NCBI GenBank assembly: GCA_903871235.1
Contig: CAIQGA010000020.1
Span: forward strand, 1-63,963
DNA: 63,963 nt
Direction of reading: 5' to 3'
Origin: an uncultured Chlorobiaceae bacterium
GTDB lineage: Bacteria > Bacteroidota > Chlorobiia > Chlorobiales > Chlorobiaceae
The notes beneath the pieces are model-generated. The model had not been told where the DNA came from. It did no database searches and was given only the letters and a program-made list of their open reading frames with translations. Numbering within the stretch: the stretch's first letter is position 1; each line of letters begins with the position of its first letter. This document shows, in pieces, positions 22,870 through 32,046 of this stretch. Position numbers and translations under genes: made by a program.

Positions 22870-24591
22870 TCAAAACCGAAACCCAAATAGTCCACCCTCT
22901 TCCTGAGCGTCAGTGAGTACAACAGGAAGAATATGGTCATGAACATTGAAGCCGGGAGTTGTTTCCTTGAATGCGTCGTCTTCGTTCATGGTGACAATGT
23001 ACTGGAACCCAAGTTTTTCCGCAGTCTCTGCTCCAACTTTGAGTGCACTTGCAATCTGGCGACCATCGACACCGTCAAAAAGGTGGCTGTCGTGAACGAG
23101 AATGCCGGGGCCGATGCCACGCTTGGCACAAAGCCGCATAAGCATCATGTCGAAACAGAAAATCTGCATATTCTTTATGCCCTTGCTGCGAGAGCCTTGC
23201 ATGGGGAACTGGAATTGAGGACCGTTGGAAGTTTCATCCACAGTCATGCTTCCTGCTGATTCGTAAAGGCGTTTGGAAGTCTCCTCAAAAGCCAGAATGG
23301 CATCGGAGAGACGTTCTTTTTGTTCTGAAAAATCCCTGCGGAGGCGGAGGGTAAGGCGATTGCGCTCAATATCGAGCTCGTTTTTTGTGCCTTCCAGTTG
23401 CTCTGCGGCGGAGAAGCGCTGGCGCAGTAACTCCACTTCAGCCTCTTTTCGGGCCGTTTCCGTCTGGAGCCTGGAAAACTGATCGAGCGCACCATGGCTT
23501 TTCAAAAGATTCATTACCACTGAACGGCGTTCGTCGAGAGATTGTTTTTCCTGGTCACGTGCAAGGATTCGCTCCCTGGCAGATTCAAGTTCACCTGAGA
23601 GGTAGTCGCGACGGTTGCGAATAACTGATTCGTGGAAAAGCCGCACCTCATCATAGCGCTTGACGGCAACTCCTGGCAGTGAGATGCCTGCCTCAGCATA
23701 GATGCTCTCCAGTTCAGCAATTGGTGGCGGAGATTCTGAATGCATGGCGGTTTCCAAATCCCGGATAGAGCCGGTGTCAATGACATTGGCATTTGAAATA
23801 TCGCTGATCTTACGGGTGAGTTGGTCAGCCTCTGATTCAAGCTCGGAGTATTGAGGCAAAACACGGAACGCCGATAATTGGGTTTGCATTTCTTTGAGAT
23901 GAGCCTCGGCGATAGTCACTTGAGTGCGCAGGTCGGAGGTTTTTCCGATGATGCTCCCAAAAGCACCGGTTCCTGCTGCCTTTTTGAGTTCTTTCAATGT
24001 TTTTTCACGATCACGAATCCGCTGCCATTCGCTGGCAATTTGCCAATCAAGACCAAGGAGATAAAGAAGAGCAATCTGAAGGTCTCCAGGCTGCTGCATC
24101 GTGGCATGCTTTTCCGGAGTGGTAAAAGCCCCGCTTCGCTGGCGACGCACGAAATAGGGGAACAGCGAACGAAAGGTCGGTTTTCGGCCTTCTGTTTTTG
24201 GAAGGTTGTGCAATGCAAACATTTTTTCACCAAGCAATGTCGTCCACTCGGTGTTGGTTATGCTGCTCTTGTTGTTAAGAAAACCGTTGCCTTCCAGATG
24301 CAGTTTTGACTTCTCTTTCCCGGAACGTTCAGTTGTAATTTTTTCTCCACAAAGGTCGAAAGTAATACCAAAGGTTTCGTTGACAAGAGCTTCAGAACGA
24401 AAAAGTGACTCTTTCTCTGCATCTGCGCCAGAAAGAAAATCGATAATTTCAATCAAACTGCTTTTGCCGGCCCCATTTCGGGTTTGCTTGTTTGTGGCTC
24501 CAGCTTCCTTTTTGGCAATGAGAATATTCAGCCCAGAGTGAAACTCAAGCTCCTTGAAGCTGGGCAAGCTGCTGAAAACACGGTAAATCAT
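22870..24591 (-). CDS. ABC-three-component (ABC-3C) system ATPase, DUF2326
   Basis: A 573-residue Rad50/SMC-like ATPase. A Walker A NGAGKSS lies at residues 39-45, after an insertion (KEAGATNKQTR) typical of DUF2326. The centre (about 190-460) is rich in heptads and probably forms coiled coil. The C-terminal half has MQIFCFDMMLMRL and GILVHDSHLFDGVDGRQ, the Walker B/D-loop region of the family. In ABC-3C conflict systems such an ATPase is thought to sense nucleic acid or protein complexes and unleash an effector. The start overlaps the upstream small gene by 4 bp. A copy of its last 37 codons exists in the relic at 29809. Confidence 0.88.
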   Translation of the reverse strand: MIYRVFSSLPSFKELEFHSGLNILIAKKEAGATNKQTRNGAGKSSLIEIIDFLSGADAEKESLFRSEALVNETFGITFDLCGEKITTERSGKEKSKLHLEGNGFLNNKSSITNTEWTTLLGEKMFALHNLPKTEGRKPTFRSLFPYFVRRQRSGAFTTPEKHATMQQPGDLQIALLYLLGLDWQIASEWQRIRDREKTLKELKKAAGTGAFGSIIGKTSDLRTQVTIAEAHLKEMQTQLSAFRVLPQYSELESEADQLTRKISDISNANVIDTGSIRDLETAMHSESPPPIAELESIYAEAGISLPGVAVKRYDEVRLFHESVIRNRRDYLSGELESARERILARDQEKQSLDERRSVVMNLLKSHGALDQFSRLQTETARKEAEVELLRQRFSAAEQLEGTKNELDIERNRLTLRLRRDFSEQKERLSDAILAFEETSKRLYESAGSMTVDETSNGPQFQFPMQGSRSKGIKNMQIFCFDMMLMRLCAKRGIGPGILVHDSHLFDGVDGRQIASALKVGAETAEKLGFQYIVTMNEDDAFKETTPGFNVHDHILPVVLTDAQEEGGLFGFRF

Positions 24592-24836
24592 GGCTGTTTC
24601 CGGCTTAGGAGGCCATCCTGAAGCTCAATCGCTCCCAAGAGAAACAGGAGGTCAAGAGTAAGGACGTAGGCATCGTAGCGCAGGGTGGTTTTTTTTCTCT
24701 CTGCGGTAATGACCGAACGGGTAAGCTCTTCCCAGAGTGAAGAGACTGTCCTTGGCTGTGCCAAATGAGTGAGCAAGCGAGCTCCGACGGTGAGCAGTGC
24801 TCGTTCTTGCGATAAGTGTTTGGTAGGCAGAATCAT
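24588..24836 (-). CDS. ABC-3C system middle component (MC6-like)
   Basis: An 82-residue protein, MILPTKHLSQERALLTVGA, then TVSSLWEEL and YVLTLDLLFLLGAIEL. This matches the small middle component 6 of ABC-3C systems, a winged-helix-like adaptor linking ATPase and effector. It overlaps both neighbours by 4 bp (ATGA-type junctions), indicating a tightly coupled three-gene unit. Confidence 0.85.
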   Translation of the reverse strand: MILPTKHLSQERALLTVGARLLTHLAQPRTVSSLWEELTRSVITAERKKTTLRYDAYVLTLDLLFLLGAIELQDGLLSRKQP

Positions 24837-25735
24837 TCTATAACGTCTCTGGGTTCCTCAAAAATATCGCAGCGCTCAAAATAGTATGCAAGCACAGTCA
24901 ATACCGCCATCTGATGTTCTGGTGTCCCGATCTGGTTTCCGCCAGCCCACGTTTGTAGTTCATTGAATATTTTGTTCGGGTGCATTGTTTCTCGTAAATC
25001 CTCGTATTTTTTTCGGAAAGAAACTGCCAGACGCTCTCCCAGAGTTTCATCATGCCATTTTTCAAGGAATGCGGAAACTAACGGAGACTTTGCCAAGCCA
25101 TATTTGATCAGAGTACTTACGGTTTCAGAGAGGTTGTTGGCCTCGATCTTGCCAGGAGGAATGGCTTTCACGGTCGCACTGGTTGGCATTGTTTTGCATT
25201 CCAGTGATTCCAGCACGACTTGAATCTCTTTAAATCCGAGTCGCGCCTTTGTCTCTTCATCAGGAGCATGACCAAACCAGGATATCCGATCGTCCAACGA
25301 GAGTCTGCAAAAAATCTGCCGAAGTTCTTCCAGTCCCCAAGGCTCCAGAATAATGCCCGCATTGACATGCTCAAACTTGAGCAATAGCTCATGAATATGG
25401 GGCGGAAGTCCATCGGTTGCGTTATGGACGAAGGTCCATTTGTCGAAGTACCTGCTCCAATGCTCTTTTGCACCCTCAAAATCTTCCGTAATTTTGGCAA
25501 TAGCTCTCGCTGCATCCATTTCGTTGGGGGCATAAACCTGAAAAAGACGACGATCTGACTTGAGAAAGCCATCATTTTTTCGGTCACCAATATTGCCCCA
25601 TGGTCGGCAGGCCATAAAATCTGCTTTGTAGGCCAAACCCATCAATCGCTCAAAGAATGTTTGAAACTCGTTTCCCTTGGTTCGGAGATACAATAGTTCA
25701 AATTTATGTTCATAATAAGCGTCTTGCAGATTCAT
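24833..25735 (-). CDS. ABC-3C system effector-type protein, putative REase-fold nuclease
   Basis: A 300-residue protein, first gene of the three-gene cassette. Near the N-terminus GNEFQTFFERLM is followed by GDRKNDGFLKSDRRLFQVYAP (residues 50-70): an acidic residue, Asp, then a Q-x-Y in the place where restriction-endonuclease-fold enzymes carry Q/E-x-K. Family members of ABC-3C effectors often have this arrangement. The C-terminal half (about 200-300) is a helical region resembling the conserved C-terminal domain of ABC-3C effectors. Nuclease activity is inferred and the catalytic Lys is not obvious. Confidence 0.72.
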   Translation of the reverse strand: MNLQDAYYEHKFELLYLRTKGNEFQTFFERLMGLAYKADFMACRPWGNIGDRKNDGFLKSDRRLFQVYAPNEMDAARAIAKITEDFEGAKEHWSRYFDKWTFVHNATDGLPPHIHELLLKFEHVNAGIILEPWGLEELRQIFCRLSLDDRISWFGHAPDEETKARLGFKEIQVVLESLECKTMPTSATVKAIPPGKIEANNLSETVSTLIKYGLAKSPLVSAFLEKWHDETLGERLAVSFRKKYEDLRETMHPNKIFNELQTWAGGNQIGTPEHQMAVLTVLAYYFERCDIFEEPRDVIE

Positions 25736-28705: not shown

Positions 28706-28934
28706 AGGGTGAAAGGAGAGAGTCGCAACACGAATAAAATGCTTTCTGCAATGTAGAGAACTTTCAAAGAACTACGGCAAAAAGAAAGCGGGGTGGTGGG
28801 GTTTTTTGACTTCTCCTTTACTGTAAAACTCTACTTTTTTTCTGTTTGGTCAAATTATCTGTACCTTTTTCGTACTATTCAGAGTGAGTTAACCTCGCAA
28901 GTGTTTCATAAAAAGAAGAATACCTTAATCCAAT

Positions 28935-29168
28935 ATGAGCACCATTTCTATTGCCGACATTCTTGAGCTTCCAGTGCAGGAGCGCCTTCGTCTCGTTGAG
29001 CTTATCTGGGATAGCGTTGCAGCAGTGCCTGAAGCTGTGGAAATCTTGCCTGCGCTTAAGGTTGAGCTTGAAGCACGCCTTGTGGAGTTCGAAGCAGACC
29101 CTGAAGCTGGCTACTGCTGGGGTCAAGTTAAATCACACCTTAATGATGGCTCATGGCGTACCGTCTGA
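28935..29168 (+). CDS. Addiction-module antitoxin (PF09720/TIGR02574 type), orphan
   Basis: A 77-residue protein MSTISIADILELPVQERLRLVELIWDS..., ending with a Leu-rich helix and WRTV. The N-terminal part is typical of the 'putative addiction module component' family, normally followed by a RelE/ParE-type toxin. Here only 113 bp separate it from an unrelated Phd/YefM gene and no RelE frame is present, so it looks orphaned or was left behind by rearrangement. Divergent from hsdR. Confidence 0.75.
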   Translation: MSTISIADILELPVQERLRLVELIWDSVAAVPEAVEILPALKVELEARLVEFEADPEAGYCWGQVKSHLNDGSWRTV

Positions 29169-29231
29169 ACATGCCGCAATGACAGGATGATTCAGTACAA
29201 TGCCCACTTACAGAACCAAAAAAGAACAAAT

Positions 29232-29260
29232 TTGACAATACGTATTAAAAGACGTACGTT
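29232..29260 (+). promoter_or_regulatory. Putative promoter/operator of the YefM-YoeB-like pair
   Basis: TTGACA (29232-29237) is followed 17 bp later by TACGTT. Two palindromes overlap it: AATACGTATT (29237-29246) and ACGTACGT (29252-29259). Autorepression by YefM/Phd at such palindromes is usual in the family; here it is inferred. Confidence 0.4.
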
Positions 29261-29281
29261 TTATGAAAAAGAGGAAACGCT

Positions 29282-29530
29282 ATGACTACAACGACTATAA
29301 GTGTAACGGGCGCACGAGCAAAACTTTACCAGCTTGTTGACGAAACGGTGAGTTCACACAAACCTGTTGTCATCAAAGGGAAAAGAGGGAATGCCGTTCT
29401 TTTGTCGGAAAGTGACTGGAATGCAATCTCGGAAACACTGCACCTTGTTTCTATTCCGGGCGTGCGCGAATCAATTCAGGAGGGGCTCAATGAGGAGATT
29501 ACTCAATGTTCGAAAGAGCTTGACTGGTGA
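29282..29530 (+). CDS. Phd/YefM-family antitoxin
   Basis: An 82-residue protein, MTTTTISVTGARAKLYQLVDETVSSHKPVVIKGKRGNAVLLSESDWNAISETLHL, the canonical Phd/YefM N-terminal DNA-binding dimer fold, with an acidic C-terminal tail that would wrap the toxin. It is followed by the YoeB-like toxin with a 4-bp overlap. Good Shine-Dalgarno-like AAGAGGAAACGCT precedes the ATG. Confidence 0.88.
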   Translation: MTTTTISVTGARAKLYQLVDETVSSHKPVVIKGKRGNAVLLSESDWNAISETLHLVSIPGVRESIQEGLNEEITQCSKELDW

Positions 29531-29790
29531 CTTGTCAGCTTGTTTATACAAAGCAGGCTCAAAAGGATGCCAAAAAACTTGCGTCTGCCGGATTGAAGCC
29601 CAAAGCATTGGAGTTGCTTGAAATTCTGCAAAAAAATCCATTCCAGACTCCTCCGCCTTTTGAGAAACTTGTTGGTGATCTTTTCGGAGCCTATTCAAGA
29701 AGAGTGAATATCCAGCATCGTCTTGTCTATCAAATCTATGAGACCGAGCGCATCGTCAAAATCATTCGTCTCTGGACTCATTATGAATAG
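29527..29790 (+). CDS. YoeB/Txe-family mRNA interferase toxin
   Basis: An 87-residue protein from GTG 29527, which overlaps the antitoxin stop (GTGA). Features: YTKQAQKDAKKLASAGLKPKALELL, then KNPFQTPPPFEKLVGDLFGAYSRRVNIQHRLVYQIYE and a C-terminal IRLWTHYE, closely matching YoeB (H-x-Y at the end, catalytic Glu/Arg/His region conserved). It cleaves mRNA in the ribosome A site in the family. Intact and presumably functional. Confidence 0.86.
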   Translation: MTCQLVYTKQAQKDAKKLASAGLKPKALELLEILQKNPFQTPPPFEKLVGDLFGAYSRRVNIQHRLVYQIYETERIVKIIRLWTHYE

Positions 29791-29808
29791 GCGACGCACT
29801 ATTCCTTC

Positions 29809-30289
29809 TCAAAACCGAAACCCAAATAGTCCCCCCTCTTCCTGAGCGTCTGTGAGTACTATCGGGAGGGTATAGTCGTGAACATTGAACTCTGGCGTGG
29901 TTTCCTTGAATGCGTCGTCTTCGAGCAGGCGGTAGATCGAGATGATGGCGGCAAAGGTTTTGCCTGAACCGGTGGCCATCTGGATGAGTGCTCTCGGGCG
30001 TGCGTTATGGAAGGAGCTTTCAGGGTTGTTGATGGCGATGCTCTGGCACTCGCGCAGAGCACGTTGGCTCAGCTTAGGAATGGAGTGCAGGCGTGCTCTG
30101 AGACTTTGCTCTTTTCCAAGCCGCTCGCGGAAGGTTTCAGGGCGGTGAAAGGTGAAGACCGGCCTTGAGCGGGGTTTTGGGTCCCGGTAGTCGGTAAAGT
30201 TGGTCAACAAGCCGGTGCTTTCGTAAACAAAGGGACGCGGGGCGTTCTGGAGATAGAACTACGGCAAAAAGAGAGCGGAGTGGTGGGTT
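29809..30289 (-). pseudogene. Mosaic relic of a second hsdR/ABC-3C copy (in-frame chimera)
   Basis: Three pieces in the original operon order. 30256-30288 matches the hsdR upstream region (28768-28800); 29923-30254 matches hsdR codons for residues about 101-209, including MATGSGKTFAAI; 29810-29922 matches the last 37 codons of the ABC-3C ATPase (EDDAFKETTP... GLFGFRF). The junction IYRLL/EDDAFKET is in frame, leaving a 133-codon ORF (29809-30210, with ATG at 30210). Everything between these pieces has been deleted. It is a decay product, unless the fused ORF has been kept by chance. Confidence 0.85.
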
Positions 30290-30397
30290 AAAGTTTCTGT
30301 GATTGTGTAATAAAATTGTACATTATTTGCAGATAAGCAGATTCCCGCAAGTAAATGTTGCTCCGTTATTACAAATTCTTTATTGCTCGTTCAGAAC

Positions 30398-31723
30398 ATG
30401 AGATATGGATTTTTTTGTCGTGATGCGCTTCGCCTGTCATTGGTCGCAGTGCTGTTATTGTTCGCTCTGGATGCTCAAGCCATGCAGATTTTTGTGAAAA
30501 CACTTACCGGCAAAACAGTCACCCTTGAAGTTGAACCGAGCGACTCCATTGAAAATGTAAAGCAGAAGATTCAGGATAAGGAGGGGATTGCGCCTGACCA
30601 GCAAGTATTAATTTTTGCTGGCAAGAAGCTTGAGGATGGACGAACACTTGCCGATTACAATATCCAGAAAGAGAGTACGCTGCACCTTGTGCTGAAGTTA
30701 ATGCCTTCATTAGATGAAGATGCGACAATAAAAAACCTTGTGGCAGCCCAGGCTTCTGCTGCCCGGCGATTTACTGAAACACAGAGCCGTAATGTGTGGT
30801 ACCACCTCGAATCATTGCCTGCCGATTTTGGTGCAGGGTACAAGAGCGCTGCGGCTTCAGCTATTAAACCAGAGGAAGTTGTTTCGCCGGTCGATAGAGG
30901 TGCGGAGTTGGCTTTCTGGTCAACCGGTGCGATAGATTTTGGTTCGGGGTTTGATGGGGCGAGTCGCTTTTCAGAATCGGGAGGAACCATTGGGCTTGAT
31001 ATTCCGCTTGATTCATGCTGGATTTTCGGGGTAGCAGTGGGCTATGGCAGTGGCAGGACAGAGGTCGATGATCGCGGTTCGGAGGTGAAAGCCCGGCAGA
31101 TTACCTCTATGGCCTATCTGTCGTTTAGTCCAGCCTCTCCGTGGAAACTGGATCTCATGGCTGGCTATGGTGATATCACTTTTCACAATACCCGTATCTC
31201 TACAGAAGGCACGGTTTATCCTGGCGTCCGTGATGGACATATCTACTTTACCGGGCTTTCTTCGAGTGGTTCGTTCTCTCTCAAGAGTTTTATGTTGCAG
31301 CCTTATCTACGCATTGAAGCCAGTACAACACGAATCGATGCCTCTTCCGAAAGTGGTGACAGTCAGTTGGCGTTAAGCTATGATAATCTGGATATGACGG
31401 ACGGCTCCGCCTCTTGTGGTCTCAGCGTTCATCGTGATATTCCTCTTGCTTCCGGCACGATCACTTTTTCATGCAGAGCACAGTACAGCCGGAATTTTAA
31501 TGGAGAGAATATTCAGGATATTTTTTACTCAAGTACAGGTGTTTCCGGAGGACTTTATTCGACGCGGAGTATGAGTAGTGCACAGAACGTCGGTACGTTT
31601 GGAGTCGGTTTTGGATACCTGGCGCACAATGGATTTCTTCTGGCGGGAGAATATCTCGGTATGCTGGGAACCGACGGCTATAGAGGAAACAGTATTACAG
31701 CCACTCTTCTGATCTCTTTGTGA
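30398..31723 (+). CDS. Ubiquitin domain fused to an autotransporter-like outer-membrane beta-barrel
   Basis: A 441-residue protein from ATG 30398 (TTG at 30383 would add 5 residues). Residues 1-28 are a signal peptide ending LFALDAQA; signal peptidase would cut exactly before [10 protein letters not shown], residue 1 of ubiquitin. Residues 29-101 equal eukaryotic ubiquitin at 65 of 73 positions (changes: I13V, T22S, A28Q, P37A, R42V, Q49K, S57A, R72K). All seven lysines and Leu8-Ile44-Val70 are kept. The C-terminal RGG is replaced by MPS, so conjugation is impossible. After a linker (about 102-165) the rest is a beta-barrel with alternating strands ([48 protein letters not shown]). No E1, E2 or deubiquitinase is nearby. 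Origin by transfer from a eukaryote is likely (inference). Confidence 0.92.
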
Positions 31724-31802
31724 AGCTGAAAAATGGGGAAGAGAGCATTTTGAGATAACGCAACGCAATGCGGCATCATCGCACTGCCTTCAGGCGGTAG
31801 TT

Positions 31803-32042
31803 TTGGCGGTTTCCTGTCTATTATTTCTTATCTTGACTGTCAGGTTGCAGGCCGCTCTGGCCGTTTTTCCGGCTGACGGAGATCGCTTGCAGTATGACTC
31901 AAAAAAAAAGTATCAGTTGAAGTATGCTCCCTGGCGGAGATTTGCACGGTTTTTGGGAGCCGATGCTTGGTTGCTATGGGGTATGAAAGAGGTTCTGAGA
32001 GGGGGCATTCCCCCCGGGGTTCTTGCCATTATAAAAGAGTGA
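31803..32042 (+). CDS. Small putative secreted or membrane protein upstream of RNase E/G
   Basis: A 79-codon frame beginning at TTG 31803; no ATG is available in frame, so the start is uncertain. The N-terminus ([15 protein letters not shown]) looks like a signal peptide or anchor, then [36 protein letters not shown] and a basic tail ending [12 protein letters not shown]. It ends 4 bp before the RNase E/G ATG, consistent with translational coupling. I do not recognise a family. The 31724-31802 interval shows nothing else. Confidence 0.45.
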
Positions 32043-32046
32043 ACGA

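Follow-up and report, generated by a model that had tools for sequence, protein, structure and literature searches.

Textbooks present ubiquitin as a protein tag specific to eukaryotes, and its presence, almost unchanged, in a gene of an uncultured Chlorobiaceae bacterium raises the question of what a bacterium keeps such a protein for. We addressed this question by computational analysis of a window of 63,963 nucleotides (the whole stretch of DNA that was analysed), in which the gene lies at 30398..31723 of the forward strand.

The gene joins a signal peptide, a ubiquitin and an autotransporter barrel

The gene is a single unbroken open reading frame, with an ATG at 30398, a stop codon ending at 31723 and an alternative TTG start at 30383, and it encodes a ubiquitin-autotransporter fusion of 441 aa. 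Scanning for a promoter and a terminator at this gene gave no more matches than chance. Residues 1-28 (30398..30481, +) correspond in sequence to a Sec signal peptide with a hydrophobic core (12-residue hydropathy of 3.07). Its cleavage motif, A-Q-A, directly abuts ubiquitin Met1, and the initial annotation was right in placing the cut exactly before this residue. The signal peptide is followed by the ubiquitin domain (aa 29-101, 30482..30700, +), which is identical to human ubiquitin at 65 of 73 positions and lacks the RGG tail, then by a predicted helix of 31 residues (aa 109-139, 30722..30814, +), a variable linker (aa 140-171, 30815..30910, +), mostly of low confidence in the model, and a C-terminal autotransporter β-barrel (aa 172-441, 30911..31720, +). 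The Pfam ubiquitin family (PF00240) matched aa 31-101 with an E-value of 6.8e-29 (99.9 bits for a cut-off of 25.4), a full-length β-grasp match above the curated cut-off, and comparison with the ubiquitin chains of the PDB gave up to 90% identity and fold matches of 0.7-1 Å. For the barrel, the Pfam autotransporter β-domain (PF03797) matched aa 175-419 with an E-value of 8.6e-32 (111 bits for a cut-off of 26). A chance resemblance to ubiquitin or to autotransporters was rejected, both E-values being far below chance.

An AlphaFold2 model of the protein was built from a twelve-sequence alignment. This model (mean pLDDT of 82) contained a ubiquitin fold, the helix at 109-139, about eight residues after the ubiquitin, a low-confidence linker at 145-168 and a barrel with exactly twelve strands of at least 11 residues, predicted to be the closest in fold to the PDB autotransporters EstA (the nearest), AaaA, NalP, EspP and BrkA. 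The Pfam match, the twelve-strand model and the EstA, NalP and EspP folds support the autotransporter-like barrel that had been proposed for this protein. The organization is that of the type Va autotransporters EstA, NalP, EspP and BrkA, with a signal peptide, an N-terminal passenger, a joining helix, whose placement in the pore is putative, and a C-terminal 12-strand β-domain. In contrast to their β-helix or enzyme passengers, the passenger here is a single 73-residue ubiquitin. Overall, the gene product carries an export signal, and its domain order and barrel type are established by computation.

The ubiquitin domain has lost its conjugation end

Compared with human ubiquitin, the domain carries the changes I13V, T22S, A28Q, P37A, R42V, Q49K, S57A and R72K. 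K6, K11, K27, K29, K33, K48 and K63 are all retained, K49 and K72 are new, and L8, I44, T66, H68 and V70 are unchanged. After L73, the RGG tail is replaced by M-P-S and the chain continues into the linker and the barrel, leaving no C-terminal Gly-Gly that could be freed and activated. The alignment thus agrees with the initial annotation, which had described a near-perfect ubiquitin with its seven acceptor lysines and the Leu8-Ile44-Val70 patch kept, R42 and R72 changed and the RGG tail gone, unable to be conjugated through its own C-terminus. No E1, E2 or JAB gene was found among the scanned neighbours of the gene; the genome itself gave no UQ_con (PF00179) match, an uninformative result as the control also gave no match.

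A secreted precedent, already named in the initial annotation, is BfUbb of Bacteroides fragilis, which is exported, is cut at the same position, has no terminal Gly and antagonises strains of its own species (PMC5705921), and which is able to trap human E1 via its C-terminal cysteine (PMC3352274); PMC12853789 cites a later BfUbb paper (Jiang et al.). Like BfUbb, the window protein has a near-human ubiquitin that is exported without a terminal Gly-Gly, cut exactly before Met1, horizontally gained and strain-variable (PMC3352274; PMC5705921). Unlike BfUbb, a free 76-residue secreted protein, it is not freely diffusible, its ubiquitin being fused to an outer-membrane barrel in one reading frame, and it lacks the C-terminal cysteine. 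The secreted ubiquitin effectors of plant-parasitic nematodes also combine ubiquitin with a signal peptide and act outside the producing cell, but they are eukaryotic, with a cleavable C-terminal extension and no membrane anchor (PMC5705921). In the open-licence literature, we found BfUbb and no account of a ubiquitin-barrel fusion, as the initial annotation had supposed, or of a wider exported family; an account in a subscription journal could be missed.

The near-identity to eukaryotic ubiquitin, with L8, I44, H68 and V70 intact in the window copy, would be expected if the protein were a mimic directed at eukaryotes such as grazing protists or hosts, interacting with their ubiquitin-binding proteins or, once taken up, blocking their conjugation machinery. 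We consider such mimicry clearly unlikely: R42 and R72 are changed and the protein has neither the RGG tail nor the BfUbb cysteine, which closes the BfUbb route to E1, and ubiquitin also occurs in Prochlorococcus and in anaerobes, which have no common host.

Ubiquitin-barrel fusions occur in several bacterial groups

Relatives of the gene were searched in a genome collection with the patterns KQKIQDKE and ADYNIQKE; 230 were found and 80 were kept by ranking, and the sample used below for site conservation is biased by both the patterns and the ranking. Eight proteobacterial loci (L002-L009, from Betaproteobacteria, Neptunomonas, Rhodoferax, Aquabacterium, Methylotenera and others) have the ubiquitin, the linker motif and the barrel in common with the window protein, and the motif RFTxxQxxNVWxHLExL of the candidate pore helix is common to the relatives. 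The same order of ubiquitin, linker motif and barrel was found in a second Chlorobiaceae species (G010), in whose protein two Ig-like domains separate the ubiquitin from the barrel. The fusion with a homologous barrel is therefore carried by ten genomes in all, the window and nine others, and the idea that it is unique to Chlorobiaceae was rejected on the eight proteobacterial loci.

Within its own family, this type of gene was present in 2 of 86 genomes. Such a rare and patchy occurrence would fit a non-functional recent import or an assembly or binning artefact. However, the frame is open, the downstream rng is 83-88% identical to same-genus genomes, homologous fusions exist in ten genomes, purifying selection is observed, and the ubiquitin starts at the signal-peptidase site. 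Taken together, these observations make an import or artefact extremely improbable and refute it as far as sequence allows; for the ubiquitin part, an assembly artefact was ruled out by the same part order with a homologous barrel in the nine other genomes.

About four other groups of barrels also carry a ubiquitin (L012/L103, L076/L102, the Prochlorococcus pair L022/L071, and L131), the C-terminal part of L103 being placed in the L012 group by 40% identity and not by Pfam. Alignment scores between the barrel groups ranged from 30 to 132, against 157 to 729 inside the group of the window. With so little similarity from one barrel group to the next, several independent origins of the fusion are probable. 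The window protein is not a one-off, since exported ubiquitin is present in these barrel groups as well as in the nine close relatives. Barrel and ubiquitin identities were uncorrelated (Spearman -0.01, 44 pairs); either the ubiquitin has reached saturation at a floor set by constraint, or barrel and ubiquitin differ in their history. In a ubiquitin-only tree, support reached at least 0.9 at 6 of 91 nodes, and the donor and the order of transfers are unreadable from it. On plasmids, the 20 matches listed were non-ubiquitin autotransporters of about 26% identity, and the count included one additional record, of 80-90% identity; the phage search found no relatives of the gene. Four loci lay on contigs classed as viral: the ubiquitin-autotransporter fusion L131, on a 50-kb contig, and L128, L129 and L130, which encode small proteins with a signal peptide, a ubiquitin and an IPTL-CTERM-like end.

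The window gene was gained at a variable site

Downstream of the gene lie rng, dapD and ctpA, and upstream is a defence-type island with ABC-3C genes (DUF2326/CTD10), hsdR and a Phd-YefM/YoeB pair. Beside the ubiquitin gene, at 29809-30210 (-), a deletion scar links a piece of hsdR with the 3' terminus of a second DUF2326 copy. The variable stretch from hsdR to rng (28706..32046) measures 3.3 kb in the window, where it holds the YefM/YoeB-type toxin-antitoxin, the hsdR/ABC-3C scar and the ubiquitin-barrel gene, and about 260 bp in the same-genus genome G036. In G025 and G022, of the same genus, rnhB adjoins rng, and G010 runs from a gyrase-type gene to rng without any island gene, its own ubiquitin copy being located elsewhere. 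As this stretch is short or island-free in relatives, the window gene was gained horizontally at a variable site. Farther upstream, at 22870-25735, ABC-three-component defence genes adjoin the type I hsdR.

A different neighbourhood was observed in five proteobacterial genomes, where a 332-aa protein with no Pfam match directly adjoins the exported-ubiquitin gene (L006:9264-10259(+), L007:9192-10187(+), L068:6836-7828(+), L014:6810-7802(+) and L003:6828-7829(-)); this protein is absent from the genome of the window. Its model (pLDDT of 67) had as best matches the SET-domain methyltransferases SETD3 and plastid PAP, which were weak (E about 0.01), and among 389 genomes of the sampled order, the only one with this protein was G318, which also bears ubiquitin. 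In these same five loci and in L033, whose contig ends, the ubiquitin precursor has a long additional N-terminal segment with a shared motif like LxITSxxxGxTFxST, located 45-60 residues before Met1 and ahead of the signal peptide. This motif is possibly a binding site for the 332-aa neighbour.

Exported ubiquitins are widespread, rare and mostly without LRGG

Among the 93 distinct prokaryotic copies at the loci examined, a hydrophobic export segment lies directly before the ubiquitin in 82, and the residues at -1 and -3 are small in 82; the signal-peptide hydrophobicity test was weak (median of 2.71 vs 2.62, P = 0.055). Median identity to human ubiquitin was 65/73, near 89%, and the LRGG tail was kept in only 11 of the 93, though residues 1-72 are conserved. 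The pattern bias of the first scan was answered by an HMM census, as all six ubiquitins read through (L089, L090, L103, L104, L105 and L109) have a signal peptide. The parts that lie 3' of the ubiquitin include dockerin, SLH, a T9SS tail, IPTL-CTERM, Ig/fn3/SdrD repeats and the barrel, and these modules read as each lineage's own means of surface placement. Censuses of Bacteroidota, one proteobacterial order, Bacillota and Pseudomonadota gave strong ubiquitin matches in well under 2% of the sampled genomes; copy number was one or two per genome, and the ten genomes examined for polyubiquitin had none. This rare, patchy and single-copy occurrence points to horizontal transfer.

Two other arrangements were observed. 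In the Actinobacteria L061, L062 and L067, the ubiquitin has no obvious signal peptide and is followed by a shared domain of about 150 aa, with tandem copies in L061 and L062. In a Verrucomicrobiaceae MAG (L075:3188-3580), an LRGG-intact ubiquitin, which may be eukaryotic contamination, is in frame with a cytochrome-c-like CxxCH segment.

Ubiquitin is known as a fast folder. Autotransporter passage is known to stall on stably folded domains, for instance calmodulin or nanobodies (PMC8419823). For these two reasons we only infer a surface display, and the sequence is also compatible with retention in the periplasm. The ubiquitin could fold before translocation and stay there, holding the barrel helix or binding a periplasmic partner, and the spacing of only about eight residues between ubiquitin and helix is in favor of such a stop. 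This is nevertheless very unlikely, considering that Gram-positive relatives have surface anchors without having such a periplasm, and that the two Ig-like domains between ubiquitin and barrel in G010 resemble an external stalk.

Selection maintains the fold and part of the surface

We compared omega in 16 pairs whose downstream parts are homologous and whose dS is unsaturated. The median was 0.06 for the ubiquitin and 0.35 for the downstream part, and omega was lower for the ubiquitin in 14 of the 16 (P = 0.0008; the pairs were hand-picked and are not fully independent). The bacterial ubiquitin is thus under strong purifying selection. Exceptions were the barrel pair L007/L008, in which the ubiquitin evolves as fast as the barrel (omega of 0.29 and 0.32), and the pairs L022/L071 and L078, in which its omega equals or exceeds that of the remaining protein. 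Synonymous sites were saturated in many pairs. Synonymous divergence (dS) was far lower in the ubiquitin than in the adjoining barrel for L004/L005 (0.02 vs 0.41) and L022/L071 (0.12 vs 0.65), which suggests a recent exchange of the ubiquitin segment.

We then compared surface patches, using residue lists (I44 patch, F4 patch, TEK box and E1 contacts) that we take from general knowledge of ubiquitin and excluding from the means columns 27-34 and 57-64, biased by the scan patterns. Weighted agreement with human ubiquitin was highest in the buried core (0.93), followed by the F4 patch (0.89) and the TEK box (0.86); it was 0.76 in the I44 patch, 0.75 in the other surface and 0.43 in the E1/C-terminal contacts. 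With these contacts at 0.43 and the core at 0.93, conjugation has been abandoned across bacteria, with the fold and some of the surface retained. In eukaryotes, receptors bind mainly at the I44 patch. The view that the protein still presents this recognition surface stands for the window copy, where the patch is intact; across bacteria, the patch is kept no better than the other surface. This weakens receptor mimicry further, eukaryotic receptor binding apparently not being what selection most visibly protects.

The same values bear on another explanation, that ubiquitin is kept for no other reason than being small, very stable and protease-resistant, as a head that shields the free N-terminus of surface proteins or plugs the barrel mouth, with no specific partner. 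Consistent with this, the ubiquitin invariably comes first, immediately after the signal peptide, although the scaffolds are unrelated, the core residues are the best kept, with the I44 patch no better than other surface, and several retained surface residues (K11/E34, K27/D52, E64/Q2 and T55/D58) take part in intramolecular contacts of the ubiquitin fold. However, identity is still near 89% to human despite saturated synonymous sites, whereas a domain needed for stability alone could diverge further, and ubiquitin was fused repeatedly although other folds would do as well. We regard a purely structural role as somewhat unlikely.

Proposed function and significance

Our preferred reading, to which we give a probability of roughly 40%, is that the ubiquitin is exported, does not conjugate and, held at the outer membrane as a tethered head, binds a partner, possibly with a BfUbb-like antagonism. 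Signal peptidase would cut before ubiquitin Met1, BAM would insert the barrel into the outer membrane, and the helix 109-139 would lie in the barrel pore; the ubiquitin, some eight residues away from this helix, would form a small head at the cell surface. Its folded surface would serve for non-covalent binding, with a protein from another cell as the most likely partner, and the head would act like BfUbb in a tethered instead of a diffusible form; the outside location, the binding to another cell and the antagonistic outcome are inferred. The BfUbb precedent, the repeated surface anchors, the omega of 0.06 and the loss of LRGG count for this reading, whereas possible periplasmic stalling, the biased site sample and the exceptions L007/L008, L022/L071 and L078 count against it.

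Across many phyla, we see close to an even chance that an extracellular, non-conjugated ubiquitin head has spread horizontally as a signal-peptide-ubiquitin unit, repeatedly joined to the lineage's own anchor, and acts in contact with other cells. Exported bacterial ubiquitin was already known from BfUbb; the barrel fusion and the wider surface-anchored family appear to be new, judging from the open-licence literature. A near-unchanged ubiquitin, strongly selected and with its tagging end lost, is exported and anchored in Chlorobiaceae and in many unrelated prokaryotes, and this family makes it testable what the ubiquitin sequence is kept for once its known job is gone. Cultured models exist, in Neptunomonas antarctica (two copies), Rhodoferax lacus and Ruminococcus albus. 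If the reading is true, anti-ubiquitin signals on environmental or gut bacteria would have to be read with caution as host ubiquitination. Overall, bacteria appear to use ubiquitin outside the cell without protein tagging.
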